Program-made: the position numbers and the translations under genes | Shown: positions 36,383 to 43,115 of the stretch, piece by piece | Position numbering within the stretch: the first letter of the stretch is position 1 | How the letters are laid out: each line of letters begins with the position of its first letter | Notes under the pieces: model-generated | What the model was told of the DNA's origin: nothing | Database searches by the model: none | The model's input: the letters and a program-made list of their open reading frames with translations, nothing else | Assembly: GCF_023051145.1 (NCBI RefSeq) | Contig: NZ_JALKFS010000005.1 | Location: 868,001-932,000, forward strand | Reading direction: 5' to 3' | DNA: 64,000 nt | Origin: Williamsia sp. DF01-3 | GTDB taxonomy: Bacteria > Actinomycetota > Actinomycetes > Mycobacteriales > Mycobacteriaceae

Positions 36383-36527
36383 ATAGCTTCCTTCGAAGCC
36401 GGCCGGTTGTCTGCAGTGGTTGCAGGTCGATCGGGGTGCTGCTGATCAGATGGCGGCGTGGCGCGGCCGATGACTTCTGTGCTGCCCCACGGTCTACCCC
36501 TCTGGGTATCGACAGGCAGGAATGCAT

Positions 36528-36800
36528 ATGACAGGTGCAACGCGCTCGGGCATGACTTCCGTGCAGGCCAACGGTGTACAACTCGGCATCGAGAGATTCG
36601 GCCGCGAGGCAGACCCGCTGATCCTCCTGGTCGGCGGCACCACGATGTTGTCGTGGCCGGACGCACTGTGTGAACGCCTCGCAACAGGTGGTCGGCACGT
36701 GGTGTGCTACGACCTGCGTGACTCAGGGACGTCGACCACCCTCGACCCGAACAACCCTGCCTACGACCTCCGGTCAGTTCGTCGTCAACCCGGCCAAGGC
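36528..36800 (+). pseudogene. Truncated alpha/beta hydrolase (N-terminal ~85 codons only)
   Basis: The frame from ATG 36528 encodes the start of an alpha/beta-hydrolase: VQANGVQLGIERFGREADPL, LILLVGGTTMLSWPDALCERL (oxyanion region), and HVVCYDLRDSGTSTT. After AYDLRS at ~36775 the similarity to a hydrolase stops; the nucleophile elbow and remaining domain are absent. The broken end abuts the 3' end of the allophanate hydrolase gene (36806), consistent with a deletion that joined the two. Confidence 0.65.
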
Positions 36801-36805
36801 CTTCC

Positions 36806-38530
36806 TCAGGGATGTCGCGCACTGGCGATTGCCGGTTTCGCTGCCCGGTACGACAACCATCCACCGAACCGGGTGATGTCCGTAGCGTCGGACAACGCCG
36901 CACGCTCACAACTGAATCCGATCATCGACCGTCCGCCTGCGAGCTGCACCGATCCCAGCATCATCGGCGCGGGCAACGTGGCGAGAAACGACGACAGTTC
37001 GGCCGGGGCCATCCGCCAGACGCCTCCGGTGATCGAACTGCCGCCGTCGATCGTGCGCACCAGTCCCGGTTTGGGTGGCGTGGTCGGCAGGGCATAGAGG
37101 CCGTAGTTGGGGGCGGTGTGATCGGCACCCACGAATCGCGCTCCGCGGCTTGTCATCTCGTGCTCGAGTGGTTGACCTGGTAGGTGTGCGCCGACGACGA
37201 ACACGTCCGACCACGATGCGCCGATGGATTCGATCCACGGCGCCCCTTGTGACAACGGCGGTGTTGCACCCGCAGCTGCCACCGACTCTGGCGTCTCGAC
37301 AACTCGGCGGGCCACATCGAGGGCGACAGCATCGTGGAAGGCGCCCGCCAGCACAGTGACCCCGAACTGGGCGGTCCCGGCGGTTCCCGCGGGAACGGCG
37401 ACACCGCACATGTCGAACAGGTTCGCGAAGTTGGTGTAGGTGCCGAGCCACGAGTTCACGCCGATCGGGTCGTCCTCGACCGCTGCGATCGATGGATGTC
37501 CAGGGACGGTCGGAACCAGCAGCGCGTCGAAATCCGACAGCAACGCAACGCTTTCGGCGCGCAGACGCTCGAGCCGCTCCAGGTCGCGCGCCATCTGAGA
37601 CGCCGTCACTGTTCCCGCAGCCGAGATCACGCGACCGACGGTGGGGTCCACTGCGTGCCGATGCGTGTCGACGAAGGCTCCGACAGCCGCGTGGCGTTCG
37701 GCGACAAGTCCACCCTCGTAGAGCAGGCGTGCTGCCTCGAGAAATGGTTCGAATGGAATTGCTTGTACAACAACACCGTCCGCGCGCAGTCGGTCCACGA
37801 CTCGGTCAAAGGCTTCACTCCAGCCCGGGGACATCGCCGGCAACTCGCGCGGTATCGCAATGCGCGGAACGGGAGGCGCGGCCAGCGGTACGTCGTGGGG
37901 GAGAGCGCGTGTGCCCTCGCCTCCGGCCATGAAACCCATGGCCGTGTTGGCAGTCTCGATGTCTCGGGCCATGATGGTCACCGCATCCCACGATCGGCAT
38001 GCGGGCACCAGCCCTCGCGTGGACACCAGACCCAGGGTGGGCTTGATCCCGACTACGCCTCCGAACGCTGCCGGCACCCGGCCCGAACCGGCCGTGTCGG
38101 TACCGATCGCGATGTCGGCGAGTCCGAGTGCGACGGCCACCGCCGATCCTGAACTCGAACCACCCGCGATGTGGTCTGGTCGTCGCGCGTCCCGGACACC
38201 TCCGTACGGGCTTCTCTGCCCGACCAATCCGGTGGCGAACTGGTCCATGTTCGTCGACCCCACGACGGTCGCCCCCGCGGCCCGTAGGCGTGCGACCGCG
38301 TCGGCGTCAACGCTCGCCGGCGCATCGGCGTATGAGGGGCATCCGGCGGTGGTCGGCAGTCCGGCGACATCGACGTTGTTCTTGACTGCCAACAGCATTC
38401 CGGCGAGCGGGCCCGTCGCTGCCGCGGCGGCCATGCGCACGTCCTCTCGGGCGAGAAGGTCGATCCAGATCTCGGACCGATCGAGTGTGTCCACTGCATC
38501 GAAGAACGCGTCAACTCGTTCGGTCATCAT
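36806..38530 (-). CDS. atzF: Allophanate hydrolase (AtzF-type, amidase signature plus C-terminal domain)
   Basis: A 574-residue enzyme splitting allophanate to ammonia and CO2. The amidase-signature triad is visible: Lys50 in AVKNN, Ser125 in AGGSSSGS, and nucleophile Ser149 in TDTAGSGR, with spacing close to that of AtzF. After the amidase domain (~1-430) comes the allophanate-hydrolase C-terminal domain (VFVVGAHLPGQPLEHEMTSR, LYALPTTPPKPGLVR, DITRFGGWLSY). It is last in a coupled operon with a cysteine hydrolase and a cyanuric-acid-hydrolase-family enzyme, fitting the end of an s-triazine/biuret route. Its ATG overlaps the upstream stop. Confidence 0.9.
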   Translation of the reverse strand: MMTERVDAFFDAVDTLDRSEIWIDLLAREDVRMAAAAATGPLAGMLLAVKNNVDVAGLPTTAGCPSYADAPASVDADAVARLRAAGATVVGSTNMDQFATGLVGQRSPYGGVRDARRPDHIAGGSSSGSAVAVALGLADIAIGTDTAGSGRVPAAFGGVVGIKPTLGLVSTRGLVPACRSWDAVTIMARDIETANTAMGFMAGGEGTRALPHDVPLAAPPVPRIAIPRELPAMSPGWSEAFDRVVDRLRADGVVVQAIPFEPFLEAARLLYEGGLVAERHAAVGAFVDTHRHAVDPTVGRVISAAGTVTASQMARDLERLERLRAESVALLSDFDALLVPTVPGHPSIAAVEDDPIGVNSWLGTYTNFANLFDMCGVAVPAGTAGTAQFGVTVLAGAFHDAVALDVARRVVETPESVAAAGATPPLSQGAPWIESIGASWSDVFVVGAHLPGQPLEHEMTSRGARFVGADHTAPNYGLYALPTTPPKPGLVRTIDGGSSITGGVWRMAPAELSSFLATLPAPMMLGSVQLAGGRSMIGFSCERAALSDATDITRFGGWLSYRAAKPAIASARHP

Positions 38531-39186
38531 CGACTCCCAGCACTGTGCACATGAACCATGGGCTGTAACCCCTCGATCAGGGGAGAAAAGGCGTTGTCCA
38601 GGTGTGCGGCGTGAGAAGTGTCGGGCAGAACCCTTACTTCCAGGTCGAGGGCGACCGCCAGTGCATGGACGGACTCATGGCGCGCACGCGGTGAGTTGGC
38701 TCCGACGGTGAGGGTGACCGAAGACGAACTGTTGGTGAAGGGGCGAGGTTCGAATCGGCGGAACATGGCGAGTTCTCGGGCAACCGTCTCCCCGCTCGAT
38801 GTGGTCATCGAAGGATCCCACCCGGGACCGTAGAGCTCGTGGCCGAAACCCGGCACCCCGTCTTCGTCGAACGCGGCGACGACGGGGTCCAGCAATCCCG
38901 GCATCAGAGACCCGGCCGCCGGTTCGTGCAGGACCGCCGCGGTCATCGTGACACCGCGGGCAGCCAACTCCAAGCCCAACGTCGCCCCGCCGCTGACGCC
39001 GAAGACAACCGCGCCGTCACACAACGGCGCCAGGAAATCGACCTCGGTCGCCAGGTTGCCGGAACGGGGCCGCTGCGGGATCACGACGTGAAAGCCTCTC
39101 TCGGACAACAACGTGGACGTCTGCTCCCATACAGGCGGGTCCACGGCCACGCCACACAGCAAGACGGCTCTCAACTGCATGGTCAT
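38527..39186 (-). CDS. Alpha/beta-hydrolase fold protein
   Basis: A 219-residue hydrolase with a nucleophile elbow GVSGGATLG (~residues 63-71) and a late His in SHAAHLDN (~195-202). The acid is probably an Asp in between. It overlaps both neighbours by four bases, so it belongs to the nitrogen-heterocycle operon. It might handle a carboxy- or ureido-intermediate, or an ester form of the substrate; nothing in the sequence shows which. Confidence 0.75.
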
Positions 39187-39890
39187 GAGGCGACAAGCGG
39201 TACACTCGAGCCCAGCGCCGACAACAACTGGTCCGAAGTGGCAGTCGCGCCGAACACCCCACCCTGCATCGCGATCATGCTCAGCGCCGCCACATGGTGG
39301 CCGTGGTCGGTGGCGCCGGTGCAATCCGACAGCACCAGGCACTCGAAGCCACGATCATTGGCCTCCCGCATGGTGGTGTGGACGCAGACATCAGTGGTGA
39401 TCCCGGTGAGGATGAGGTTCGTGATACCCGCACTGCGCAAGATCAGGTCCAGGTCGGTGGCGTAGAAGGCTCCCTTACCGGGTTTGTCGATGATCGGTTC
39501 ACCGGGCAGCGGCGCGACCTCCGGGACGATCTCCCACCCGGGTTCGCCGCGCACAAGGATGCGTCCGCACGGTCCAACCGAACCGATCTCCGCGCCCGCG
39601 CGCTCCGAACGCCACCGCTTGTTCTGCGGAAGGTCGATCAAGTCGGGGCGGTGCCCTTCGCGGGTGTGGATCACCAGCATTCCTGCGTCGCGACACGCAG
39701 CGAGTACTCGGGCGGTCGGCGCGAGGCCCGCACGGGTCAGCGAGAGGTCGTAACCCATCGAATCGACGTATCCGCCGGGTCCGCAGAAGTCGACCTGCCA
39801 GTCGATGAGTAACAGCGCGGTGCGTCCGACATCGAGAACACCGTCGTAGGGCCAGGCGTAGGGATGAGCGTCAACGGCGTGGGTGGTCAT
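39183..39890 (-). CDS. biuH: Isochorismatase-like cysteine hydrolase, probable biuret amidohydrolase
   Basis: A 235-residue cysteine hydrolase with the family triad visible: Asp in [11 protein letters not shown] (~30), Lys in [12 protein letters not shown] (~138), and Cys in [20 protein letters not shown] (~168). Adjacent to allophanate hydrolase and a cyanuric-acid-hydrolase-family enzyme, the best assignment is biuret hydrolase (biuret to allophanate and ammonia). The sequence family also contains ureidoacrylate and triuret hydrolases, so the substrate is inferred from context. It overlaps its neighbours by four bases on both sides. Confidence 0.72.
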
Positions 39891-40969
39891 CGAGCAATGC
39901 CTTCCGAAGTGGTGTTGTAAGGGGTGAATCGGGGTGGGTCGACTTCGTAGACGATGGTCACGCTGCCGCCCCCGGGTCGTCCCTGATGTTCGGCGCCTCC
40001 GGAGACATACACCGCCCCGTCGCCTTTGATGGCCGCAACAAGGGCGCCGACAGCAGCCCGTGCGTGGCGCGTCGCGTTGATGTCAGAGTCGGTGAGCATC
40101 GTGTGCCGCAGGTTGCGGATGGTTCCGGAGGGATCGGCTTCGGCCTTGACGAACAGCTGCCGGATTCGGCCGCCACGCTCGGACACCAGAGCGGCAGCGG
40201 AGAGAAGCGAATCGAGGTCGTAGGCGTCCTTCATCTCGGTGTGCAAGGCGCGCAACGAGTTCGCGGCTTTGTCGCTCTCGCCGACCACCAGCACGTGGCA
40301 CGATTTCAGTTCGGCTCCGGCGCTTGCTGACGCCCGGTTCGACCAGGCGTGGCGCCGTCCCTCGAGTGCAGCCAGTGCGGTGTCGGTGTCGATCTCGTCG
40401 AGCGCCAGGGCGATTCCCAGCGAACTCGCTGCGCGTGAACGCGCCATCGACTCATAGGTGTCGTCGCTGACCGGCTCGACGCCCATGACACGCAGTCCGG
40501 CGATGTCGGTGGAGGTGAGCAGCGGACATTTGACGAGGACAAGGTGCACATCGTCGTCTGCGATGCCGAGTTCGGCGACCAGCTTGGCCACTGTGTCGCG
40601 GACCGACTCCATGTGCGCGACGCGCCCCAGCTCGGCCGGGGGGATCGCCGGGGTGGTTCCTGCGGCGGCGACCAGACCACGCTGATGACGGGGATCGACC
40701 CGATCGTCGGCCACCAGTAGGTTCACATGCGGTGCGATGACACCTTCGGTGCCTCCCGAGAACACGGTCACCGCAGCTTCTTTGAGGTGGGGTTCCCATA
40801 CCGCAGAGGCAAGCGTGCGGCTGAAGTCGTTGACGCAACCGTTGCCCTCGGTCTTTCCGACCACGGCGAGCACATCATCGGTGCCGAATCCGTTGTCGGC
40901 CAACAGCTCGAGGGCGCTGATGTCGTCGGGCCCCGTGGTGGGCGCGGTGAGCAGGCGGACTCCGGTCAT
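39887..40969 (-). CDS. Ring-opening amidohydrolase: cyanuric acid hydrolase/barbiturase family (AtzD/TrzD/Bar)
   Basis: A 360-residue protein of the rare three-repeat toblerone fold. Family-defining motifs are present: [16 protein letters not shown] (~36-51), [13 protein letters not shown] (~70-82), GESDKAANS with the second-repeat Ser, and [15 protein letters not shown] (~319-333). The family opens cyanuric acid (giving carboxybiuret then biuret) or barbituric acid (giving ureidomalonate). The downstream biuret-type and allophanate hydrolases favour cyanuric acid; the NCS2 pyrimidine-type permease leaves barbiturate open. Confidence 0.88.
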
Positions 40970-42318
40970 GCCACGACCTCCTTGTTCGTCGTCGGTTCAG
41001 CGGTCGGGGTGTCGTCGCCACGTCGTCGTGGCGGTAGGTGATGGAAGACGATGTTGAGGACAAATGCGGTGATCACAGCGCTGCTGATGGCGTTGCCGAA
41101 GATGATCTGCACCTCGGCGGGGAAGTCGGTGTAGATGTCCTTGGAGACCACCGGGATCATCCCTGCGCCCAACGCCAGCGAGACGATCATCAGGTTGTCG
41201 TTGTTGCTGTAGTCCACCTTCGACAGGGTGCTGATGCCGGTGCCCGCGACGAGTGCGAACATCACCAGACTGACCGATCCGATGACTGCCCCCGGCAGGC
41301 TCGCGATCGTCTCGCCGAGCTTGGGGATCAGCGCGAAGATGATCAGGAGCGCACCGGCGAACACCACGACCGCACGGCTCGCGATCTTGGTGATCCGGAC
41401 GAGACTGACGTTCTGCGCAAAGATGGTGTCGGGGAACGAGGTCCATAGTCCCGCGAGTACTGCGGACGCACCGTCGGCGGCCAGACCGCGGGCAATACGC
41501 GGAGGGTCCGCGTCGATGCCGGTGGTCTCGGAGATCGCCATCATGTAGGCGGTCGACTCGATGAAGATCACGATCATCACGATGCTCATGGAGATGATCC
41601 CGGCAATGGGGAATGTCGGTGCGCCGAAGAAGAAGGGTTGCGGGATCCCGAACCACGCTGCGTCGCCCACACCGGAGAAGTCCGTCATCGACATCGCCGC
41701 AGCCGCGATGGTTCCGAGGATCAGAGCGGTGAGAACGGCTGCCTGCCTGATGAATCCACGTCCGTAGCGCATCAGGGCGACCACGACGATGATGATGCCC
41801 AAAGCCAACGGCAATCGTTCGCCGTCGGCCGGGCCGTCGTCGAAGATCATCGACACTGCTTTGCCGATGAGCGACAACCCGATCATCGTCACCGCTGCAC
41901 CGCGCACGACCGGAGGAAAGAACCGCAACAGCTTGGAGAACGGCACCGCCATGAGGAGAGCGAAGATCCCGGCACCGATCATCGACCCGTACACCGCATT
42001 CAGGCCGTACTCCTGCCCGATGAGAATCATCGGGGTGACGGCTGTGAACGAGGCGCCTGCCACGACCGGCATCCGCGCACCCAGGATGTTGCCGATGCCG
42101 GCGGCTTGGATGATGGTGACGATGCCGGCGATCAGCAGGTCGGCGTTGACCAACAGTCCGATGGTGCGTTGGTCCAGCCCAAGGGCCGCACCGAAGACGA
42201 GGGGAACGGTGACGCACCCCGTGTACATGACGATCACATGCTGAGCGCCAAAGGCTCCCGTGCGCCATAGGCCGGACATGCTCGGCGTTCGCGTCGGGGT
42301 AGGAAGGAAGTTTCGCAT
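40966..42318 (-). CDS. NCS2-family nucleobase permease (uracil/xanthine type)
   Basis: A 450-residue membrane protein with about 12-14 hydrophobic segments. It carries NCS2 motifs such as QHVIVMYTGCVTVPLVFGAA near the N-terminus and GDAAWFGIPQPFFFG. The cation/substrate segment VIFIESTAYMMAISETTGID (~235-254) has the conserved Glu, and GLWTSFPDTIFAQN follows. ATG 42318 is chosen because an operator-like palindrome ends just upstream. As first gene of the nitrogen-heterocycle operon it probably imports the ring substrate. It overlaps the next gene by four bases. Confidence 0.9.
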   Translation of the reverse strand: MRNFLPTPTRTPSMSGLWRTGAFGAQHVIVMYTGCVTVPLVFGAALGLDQRTIGLLVNADLLIAGIVTIIQAAGIGNILGARMPVVAGASFTAVTPMILIGQEYGLNAVYGSMIGAGIFALLMAVPFSKLLRFFPPVVRGAAVTMIGLSLIGKAVSMIFDDGPADGERLPLALGIIIVVVALMRYGRGFIRQAAVLTALILGTIAAAAMSMTDFSGVGDAAWFGIPQPFFFGAPTFPIAGIISMSIVMIVIFIESTAYMMAISETTGIDADPPRIARGLAADGASAVLAGLWTSFPDTIFAQNVSLVRITKIASRAVVVFAGALLIIFALIPKLGETIASLPGAVIGSVSLVMFALVAGTGISTLSKVDYSNNDNLMIVSLALGAGMIPVVSKDIYTDFPAEVQIIFGNAISSAVITAFVLNIVFHHLPPRRRGDDTPTAEPTTNKEVVA

Positions 42319-42324
42319 GGACAA

Positions 42325-42336
42325 TTCGTATACGTT
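42325..42336. promoter_or_regulatory. GntR-type half-site/operator TTCGTATACGTT at the permease start
   Basis: Shares TTCGTATACG with the perfect palindrome at 42388-42399. It lies 7 bases upstream of the permease ATG (minus strand), overlapping the expected leader or ribosome-binding region. A second dimer site would allow cooperative repression by the neighbouring GntR protein. Confidence 0.55.
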
Positions 42337-42387
42337 CCGTGTGTCACAACCGTTATCAACCATTACGTTCGAGTTAACGGCCAAAGG

Positions 42388-42399
42388 TTCGTATACGAA
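42388..42399. promoter_or_regulatory. GntR/FadR-type palindrome TTCGTATACGAA upstream of the permease operon
   Basis: A perfect 12-base palindrome that fits the FadR-subfamily pattern TnGTnnnACnA closely. It lies between the GntR gene stop (42403) and the permease start, in the promoter region of the nitrogen operon, 63 bases from a second near-identical site. Confidence 0.65.
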
Positions 42400-42402
42400 G
42401 TT

Positions 42403-43068
42403 CTACCTGATCAATTGTCGGACCAGATCTTCGTCCTTCTTCACGTGCTCATCCATCAAGTAACCCGCCTGAAAGGAGGAGCCGTCGAGAACGGCACCGG
42501 CAATCGCCGTGTGGTCACGCCAGCATCCGTCGGCCCTGCTCTCCACGTCGCGGTCGAAGACCCACGCGATGCGCCGCAGCGTGTGTTCGAGAGTGCGGGC
42601 CAGTTCTCGGTTCCCGGAAGCCTCGGCGATCAGCGTGTGGAAACGAAGCACCAGAGGAGGGACCTGGTCGTGGTGCTTCAACCGCTCGGCCTGTGTTCCC
42701 GACTCGGTGACGAGGCGCAGTTCGGAAGCGAACTCACCACCGATGCGCTCGGCAGCCAGTCGGGCACCGAACACCTCCAGACCTCGGCGGACCTGCATCA
42801 ACTCGATCGCGTCGGCCCGGGACGCGCCTGACACAGTTGCGCCCTTATAGCGCTCGAGGTTGACAAATCCCTCGCTCTGCAACTGCGACAGCGCCTCTCG
42901 GACCGGTACCCGCGACACCCCGAATCGTTCGGCGAGCATGGGTTCCGGGAGACGGTCGCCCGGTTGCAGCTTTCCGTCGAGGACGTCGTTGCGGATCGCT
43001 GCAGCGATCGCTTCCCGGGTCGCCGGCCCTCTTGTCATCGCAGCGGCGACATCCGAGTCGGGGTGCAT
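42403..43068 (-). CDS. GntR-family (FadR subfamily) regulator of the nitrogen-heterocycle operon
   Basis: A ~221-residue regulator with an N-terminal winged HTH (~12-75: AIAAAIRNDVLDGKLQPGDR, ERFGVSRVPVREALSQLQSE) and a C-terminal FCD helical domain (RFHTLIAEASGNRELARTLE, His residues for a metal or ligand site). Starts at ATG 43068 or 43038; neither has a clear ribosome site. It is upstream and co-directional with the permease operon, with two matching palindromes between, so it very likely controls that operon. Confidence 0.88.
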   Translation of the reverse strand: MHPDSDVAAAMTRGPATREAIAAAIRNDVLDGKLQPGDRLPEPMLAERFGVSRVPVREALSQLQSEGFVNLERYKGATVSGASRADAIELMQVRRGLEVFGARLAAERIGGEFASELRLVTESGTQAERLKHHDQVPPLVLRFHTLIAEASGNRELARTLEHTLRRIAWVFDRDVESRADGCWRDHTAIAGAVLDGSSFQAGYLMDEHVKKDEDLVRQLIR

Positions 43069-43115
43069 CCGGTCAGGATAGTTGCAGCCGGGGGTTCGTG
43101 ACCTGCTCGGTGAGG

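Follow-up and report, generated by a model that had tools for sequence, protein, structure and literature searches.

Here we describe a locus of six genes on the minus strand of a 64,000-nucleotide stretch (the window) of the genome of the actinomycete Williamsia sp. DF01-3 (contig NZ_JALKFS010000005.1, positions 868,001 to 932,000). We propose that it is an operon for scavenging nitrogen from cyanuric acid, in which an alpha/beta hydrolase (ABH) would accelerate the decarboxylation of the intermediate 1-carboxybiuret, and we put the probability that pathway and ABH step are together correct at about 0.5, on the strength of sequence comparisons. With the ABH step left out, the pathway is very likely, and its course from cyanurate through carboxybiuret, biuret and allophanate to ammonia is well supported; that ABH converts carboxybiuret to biuret appears slightly better than an even bet, and is the best account of where its gene is placed. 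The genes run in the order gntR, permease, ring hydrolase, biuH, abh, atzF, and the features of the locus are as follows.

42403 to 43068, minus strand: first gene, for a GntR-family (FCD) regulator (PF00392 and PF07729; start at 43068 picked by a codon-usage gene caller).
42388 to 42399, no strand assigned: putative operator site 1, a perfect palindrome, TTCGTATACGAA, centred on GTATAC and kept across permease loci.
42325 to 42336, no strand assigned: putative operator site 2, an imperfect copy with two mismatches, 63 bp from site 1 and near the permease ATG.
40966 to 42318, minus strand: NCS2 permease, probable cyanurate importer (alternative starts at 42279, 42363 and 42384).
39887 to 40969, minus strand: predicted cyanuric acid hydrolase of the AtzD/TrzD family (the ring hydrolase).
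39183 to 39890, minus strand: predicted biuret hydrolase BiuH, isochorismatase-like.
38527 to 39186, minus strand: alpha/beta hydrolase (ABH), proposed carboxybiuret-decarboxylating enzyme (weak PF12697 match, gene exclusivity, R169 and W123).
36806 to 38530, minus strand: predicted allophanate hydrolase AtzF with an AH_C domain.

The first-pass annotation had described five of these genes as coupled by four-base overlaps and under GntR control. Indeed, the open reading frames were found as it described them, all four junctions from permease to AtzF being -4 overlaps of the type ATGA, which suggests that the five genes are co-transcribed; the GntR/FCD gene lies 84 bp upstream of the permease, outside the interval first assigned to the operon. 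The whole six-gene order is kept in two related genomes (L084 and L085), all four overlaps recur in another member of the family (genome L160), where ABH shows 65% identity, and the permease–ring hydrolase and ring hydrolase–BiuH overlaps recur in two further loci (L082 and L083).

In the scheme that we propose, GntR would control the operon at the two palindromes and the NCS2 permease would import cyanurate, whose ring the AtzD-type enzyme is predicted from its residues to open, yielding 1-carboxybiuret. Judging from the gene exclusivity described below, ABH would then accelerate the decarboxylation of carboxybiuret to biuret, taking the job done elsewhere by AtzH-like proteins, by TrtB or perhaps by a cupin. 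BiuH, again from its residues, is predicted to convert biuret to allophanate and ammonia, and AtzF is predicted to convert allophanate to ammonia and unstable dicarboxyammonia, the source of the third ammonia. According to the relevant portion of PMC7948467, carboxybiuret is the product of both AtzD and the triuret hydrolase TrtA and decays spontaneously with a half-life of ~20 min, and trtB, which encodes a decarboxylase, co-occurs with TrtA and AtzD; AtzH, in turn, is regarded as the protein that decarboxylates 1,3-dicarboxyurea in Pseudomonas ADP (PMC6219798, in part). TrtB is not equated here with the AtzH-like protein, the cupin or any other protein. (Note that the abstract of PMC12625717 writes atzH once, perhaps in error for atzF.)

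The ring hydrolase matches the Pfam family Amido_AtzD_TrzD (PF09663; E 2e-111) and passes the NCBIfam AtzD model NF052395 narrowly, by 1.4 bits (361.4 against a cut-off of 360). Its bit scores against cyanuric acid hydrolases (five distinct sequences) are 212-244, compared with 174.6 against the barbiturase 5hwe, and 150 of 343 aligned residues are identical to those of the enzyme of Rhizobium johnstonii 3841. All ten sites of the dyads K39/S71, K147/S216 and K275/S323, of R51, R179 and R288 and of E220 are kept, sites whose roles in cyanuric acid hydrolases are set out in part of PMC4051656. At the position known as Arg188 the window enzyme has an Arg (Arg179), and the barbiturase-type rows of our own alignments have Asn; the portion of PMC4051656 concerned gives Gln for barbiturases, a different letter that nonetheless agrees in the loss of Arg. 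The window enzyme thus carries neither of the replacements that mark a barbiturase. Our alignment of the family has 87 rows, counting duplicates, of which 37 have Arg and 46 Asn at this position; the remaining four (L087, L109, L110 and L111) were mis-extracted and fall outside both classes. One Asn-type row, L131, has a match at E 1e-241 to 5hwe, a barbiturase of solved structure, and carries the motifs KTPLL and FVSVSAAH, where the window enzyme shares KCPLL and YVSGGAEH with cyanuric acid hydrolases.

These residues bear on the possibility that the operon, with a barbiturase as its ring hydrolase, serves the breakdown of barbiturate or pyrimidines. The two kinds of enzyme share a Pfam family, the AtzD cut-off is barely exceeded, and the combination of an NCS2 permease with an isochorismatase-like protein resembles the Rut system, which has parts of both kinds. 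However, BiuH and AtzF would be without a role in such an operon, and none of 19 genomes with barbiturase-type enzymes has an ABH match; taking these points together with the residues just described, we reject a barbiturate operon as highly improbable. Separately, in two incomplete genomes of the phylum (L177 and L178; 74% and 81%), a ring hydrolase with His at the third Arg site stands beside a protein of the AtzF cluster.

BiuH has an Isochorismatase domain, scores 420.6 against the equivalog NF050097 (cut-off 370) and is identical to the BiuH of R. johnstonii 3841 at 150 of 227 aligned residues, with the active site kept. In particular, D30, F35, Y41, K136, K139, I164, T165, C169 and Q209 correspond to D36, F41, Y47, K142, K145, I170, T171, C175 and Q215 of the R. 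johnstonii enzyme, so that the nine catalytic or contact residues are kept, and differences among 19 positions compared occur only at 28, 210 and 212; the roles of the catalytic and biuret-contacting residues are given in part of PMC5806882. AtzF has Amidase and AH_C domains (PF21986, 149 bits) and scores 610 against TIGR02713 (cut-off 511). With curated cut-offs exceeded clearly by BiuH and AtzF and narrowly by the ring hydrolase, and with the dyads, Arg188 and the biuret-contacting residues in place, cyanurate and biuret are favoured over barbiturate among the substrates that the first-pass annotation had offered, and its claim of a complete enzyme set from cyanuric acid to ammonia is borne out at the level of prediction. 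A second allophanate hydrolase above the cut-off (601.9 bits) is encoded elsewhere in the same genome (G000:C5:5171079-5172668).

The permease scores 287 bits against Xan_ur_permease (PF00860), lies above the cut-off of the NCS2 superfamily model TIGR00801 (299.7 against 291.8) and just below that of pbuX (413.7 against 414.15), and has UraA and UapA as relatives. In all 19 distinct permease loci that we saw, the NCS2 permease adjoins the ring hydrolase, and we regard it as probable that it imports cyanurate. The pairing had been flagged beforehand as notable; it is not, however, unique, for a Citrobacter plasmid has the pair as well. There (L207:5001-7531), a ring-opening amidohydrolase is followed by an NCS2 symporter in an fdrA-type neighbourhood without BiuH, and other enterobacterial plasmids are recorded as carrying ring hydrolases of a similar kind. 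Among the papers searched, none combines cyanuric acid with NCS2. In Nocardia and Mycobacterium loci, an NCS1/CodB-like permease (L003:8691-10004 and 23 other cluster members) adjoins BiuH and is a candidate biuret importer; one locus, L043, holds both kinds of permease. The 437-residue gene between ring hydrolase and BiuH in Nocardia, considered at one point as an amidase, is this NCS1/CodB-like permease.

A gntR gene stands beside the permease in 16 of the 19 loci, the exceptions being L043, L160 and L169, and two GTATAC-centred sites are present in 18 of them (none in L043). The sites are spaced by 63 bp in seven loci, by 73 in two and by 83-85 in nine, or approximately six, seven and eight helical turns, and their letters vary with lineage (TTCGTATACGAA versus TTTGTATACAAA). 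GTATAC occurs within the window only at the two palindromes upstream of the permease; across the 19 loci it occurs 70 times in 370,306 bases, 36 of those in the pairs. Within the window alone, the operator motif with at most two mismatches has four matches against 1.76 expected, a count reached by 13 of 100 shuffles, and the case for an operator therefore rests on conservation. A natural reading is that the paired palindromes would serve as sites for a pair of GntR dimers.

ABH had been set down initially as an additional hydrolase of unknown role; its presence in the operon stands, and the carboxybiuret step can now be put forward as its role from the gene content of BiuH loci. We sorted 92 such loci (80 kept of at least 572 relatives matched, together with the window and genome stretches, minus L162 and L166, which duplicate L002 and L003); loci without BiuH, among them L169 and L170, fall outside this set, and contig ends truncate some loci (L034, for example, is 3.4 kb). 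Carboxybiuret producers were taken to be cyanuric acid hydrolase or TrtA, and the accessory kinds, which are mutually unrelated, to be AtzH-like proteins (Pfam PF11533), cupins and ABH. Exactly one accessory kind is found in 49 of the 50 loci with a producer, and none of the 92 loci holds two. The 21 ring hydrolase loci have ABH in 19, a cupin in one and an AtzH-like gene in one; the 29 TrtA loci have an AtzH-like gene in 24, a cupin in three, ABH in one and none in one; and 18 of the 21 loci without a recognised producer have none, the others having AtzH-like genes (two) or ABH (one). Naive Fisher tests give P values of 8e-13 for producer against accessory and 3e-15 for exclusivity, both post hoc and uncorrected for kinship. 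The cupin, present in only four loci, was rejected as the sole alternative to ABH; the cupin of the R. johnstonii AtzD–BiuH cluster matches that of L032 at 54%.

The remaining 21 loci contain an isochorismatase-like paralogue beside BiuH, which we call IHL2 (mostly 180-230 residues; L011:9373-9933, L013, L017, L028, L057, L071, L073, L192 and others), and have ABH in 13, an AtzH-like gene in four and none in four. Its Asp-Lys-Cys triad is not intact, single residues remaining in some rows, and we rejected IHL2 as a triuret hydrolase, the full triad occurring in no row save L069, which was placed with the ring loci (L011 has E-K-C in its first gene, whose product is another protein). IHL2 may be a partner without catalysis of its own or may have a new activity, and its loci, with ABH or AtzH-like genes and no known producer, are the main puzzle.

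It is conceivable that ABH acts downstream in the cyanurate operon, on allophanate or on the dicarboxyammonia or carbamate released by AtzF, much as RutD is thought to clear a carbamate-type product. The 14 BiuH loci that have ABH and neither a ring nor a triuret hydrolase would suit this idea, and RutD (3v48) falls within the tied top group of structural matches by VIA-align (Z 18.8, root-mean-square deviation 3.0, 212 aligned, rank 10). However, that Z score is not above those of the many other hydrolases with which RutD is tied, and the 18 producer-less loci lack ABH, AtzH-like gene and cupin alike, though BiuH would yield allophanate there too. We therefore consider a downstream role unlikely, a judgement in which the layout of L169, described below, also counts. 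About equally unlikely is that ABH cleaves a substituted upstream precursor, an N-acyl compound or ester, to cyanurate or biuret, its exclusivity with AtzH-like genes reflecting lineage sorting. Esterases and lactonases are among its fold neighbours, and the gene kinds are clumped on the BiuH tree; yet on that weakly supported tree (good support for 18 of its 89 inner branches) the accessory kind changes at least 17 times (the producer kind at least 16) and no locus has two kinds, and the importer is NCS2 here, whereas elsewhere ABH adjoins a BMP-type ABC importer. Such BMP-type loci without a ring hydrolase also dispose of the notion that ABH is confined to ring hydrolase loci.

A role for ABH at the carboxybiuret step is consistent with its distribution among 301 genomes of the GTDB family, scored with at most ten ABH candidates per genome. 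ABH is present in 15 of these at E <1e-50 (18 at E 0.001, the three further genomes, at E ~7e-4, being left out of the count), and PF09663 in 35. The latter comprise 14 genomes with the short Arg type, all with ABH, 19 with the Asn (barbiturase) type, and two others without ABH, namely G657 (Arg type but different) and G658 (a fragment); the association of ABH with ring-hydrolase type has a Fisher P of 3.5e-23, uncorrected for kinship. L169 pairs ABH with the permease and ring hydrolase only, its BiuH and AtzF lying elsewhere in the genome, and this layout, together with the distribution by ring type, indicates that ABH goes with ring opening in the family. In the fifteenth ABH genome, G669, gntR and abh lie between the same flanks as in L169, with no permease or ring hydrolase, in what looks like an operon remnant. 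BiuH and AtzF are found above cut-off somewhere in all 15 ABH genomes, and 11 have no AtzH-like match anywhere. Among 396 genomes of the phylum, the ABH profile has 13 matches at E 1e-10, three of them in BiuH loci; ABH has no match in 72,556 plasmid records. Seven plasmid ring-hydrolase stretches form a set too small and mixed to count: two from Rhizobium have a cupin, two (Agrobacterium and Acidithiobacillus) have AtzE and hpxZ, and the annotations of those from Skermanella, Citrobacter and Polaromonas name neither, nor BiuH.

ABH itself matches Abhydrolase_6 (PF12697) weakly (29.7 bits; cut-off 26.3) and shows no AtzH-like (PF11533) homology, and our claim is one of function analogous to AtzH or TrtB and not of membership in that family. 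Its AlphaFold2 model (mean predicted local distance difference test score, 94.8) matches general alpha/beta hydrolases, including esterases, lactonases and other hydrolases. RutD orthology was rejected as lacking sequence support: at E 0.001 no NCBIfam model, RutD (TIGR03611) included, matches the window ABH, only L009 of three other ABHs scanned reaches that model (16.4 against 238.5), and RutD is not among the 50 Foldseek matches listed. The coding score of abh (18.9) is the lowest of the six genes; 14 more genomes of the GTDB family conserve it at 54-90% identity, which argues that it is a real gene and not a gene-calling artefact. S65 (in GxSGG), H87, E88, S165 and R169 are invariant across 18 ABH relatives, and H192 varies once. 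Both R169 and W123 are kept in all 34 ABHs of the sorted BiuH loci and of L169 and L170, compared with zero and one, respectively, of six similar hydrolases elsewhere, and an Arg–Trp pair that is fixed in the BiuH/ring setting only would fit the binding of a small carboxylate.

Several observations weigh against the proposed operon and ABH step. Ser165 stands in ABH where a catalytic Asp is expected, at what we take to be its usual position in most alpha/beta hydrolases, so that the catalytic acid may instead have moved to Glu88, after the strand following the nucleophile; and an alpha/beta hydrolase that decarboxylates a carbamate is mechanistically unproven. The accessory kinds were chosen after viewing the same loci, the Rhizobium cupin having been tried first and the AtzH-like cluster noticed thereafter. 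Of the 34 ABH loci, 14 are without a known producer, 13 of them having IHL2 and one having neither. Kinship-corrected comparisons on the BiuH tree rest on two to four supported pairs and so cannot reach significance: producer and accessory change in the same direction 2.6 times and in opposite directions 0.0 times on average over four pairs (1.7 and 0.0 over two pairs without IHL2), and for ABH against the other kinds the figures over four pairs are 0.0 and 0.6. An AtzH-like match is present in four of the 15 ABH genomes, strong in G630 (157 bits) and at 28.4, 27.6 and 23.3 bits in the others, and ten of the 396 phylum genomes encode a weaker ABH-like protein (E 1e-11 to 1e-20) in a fetched stretch that lacks BiuH. 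Finally, L160 and L169 lack gntR beside the permease even though the palindromes are kept there.

The locus seems to come or go as one block. At the corresponding site of genome G004 (L203:4270-4344), 73 bp stand in place of the ~6.7 kb of the window (36406-43112), both flanks being present at ~93-97% DNA identity, and PF09663 is found in three of nine genomes of the genus, the window's included; we thus take the set to be gained or lost as a unit, and assign no direction. Next to the operon, at 36522-36773, lies what is left of a gene for an alpha/beta hydrolase, which NCBIfam classes as macrolide-esterase-like and which is intact at 278 residues in L084 and L085; ~617 bp of it are gone in the window, the cut lying 32 bp from the end of atzF.

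Our findings raise the possibility, for which we would give slightly less than even odds, that ABH is the founder of a family of carboxybiuret-decarboxylating enzymes with the alpha/beta-hydrolase fold, an independent solution beside the AtzH-like proteins and perhaps the cupin, with Glu88 as its possible acid and Arg169 and Trp123 as its marks. We make no claim that ABH is unpublished. If the proposal is correct, unrelated folds took over the carboxybiuret step more than once, and R169 and W123 would allow poorly annotated hydrolases beside BiuH to be named. The small, single-importer cassette could also serve the removal of cyanurate from water.

Among known systems, the pRL10 cluster of R. 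johnstonii (leguminosarum) 3841, whose cyanurate pathway is biuret-dependent (PMC5806882 and PMC6219798, each in part), likewise has AtzD beside BiuH and a GntR-type regulator gene nearby. It differs in having a BMP-type ABC importer, a formamidase, a second cysteine hydrolase and a cupin in place of the NCS2 permease and ABH, and no atzF is annotated in the 15 kb examined, unlike in the window. The atzDGEHF operon of Pseudomonas sp. ADP, an order also seen on Agrobacterium leguminum plasmid p3, resembles ours in its AtzD and AtzF ends and, according to part of PMC6219798, in having a small accessory protein that handles an unstable intermediate; there, however, AtzEG deaminates carboxybiuret, AtzH acts next and a LysR gene stands beside, whereas the window operon has BiuH and ABH and no AtzE, AtzG or AtzH. 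The triuret pathway of TrtA, BiuH, TrtB and AtzF converges on carboxybiuret (PMC7948467, in part), TrtA replacing the ring hydrolase and an AtzH-like gene accompanying it far more often than ABH (24 against one of the 29 TrtA loci). A cyanuric acid hydrolase beside BiuH, in Gordonia sp. KTR9 among others, has already been published as a similar, uncharacterised cluster in PMC5806882, of which the pertinent portion names the two enzymes only, so that KTR9 is compared here by description; since another Gordonia locus (L002) has gntR, permease, ring hydrolase, BiuH and ABH, the KTR9 pair probably belongs to the same type of operon.

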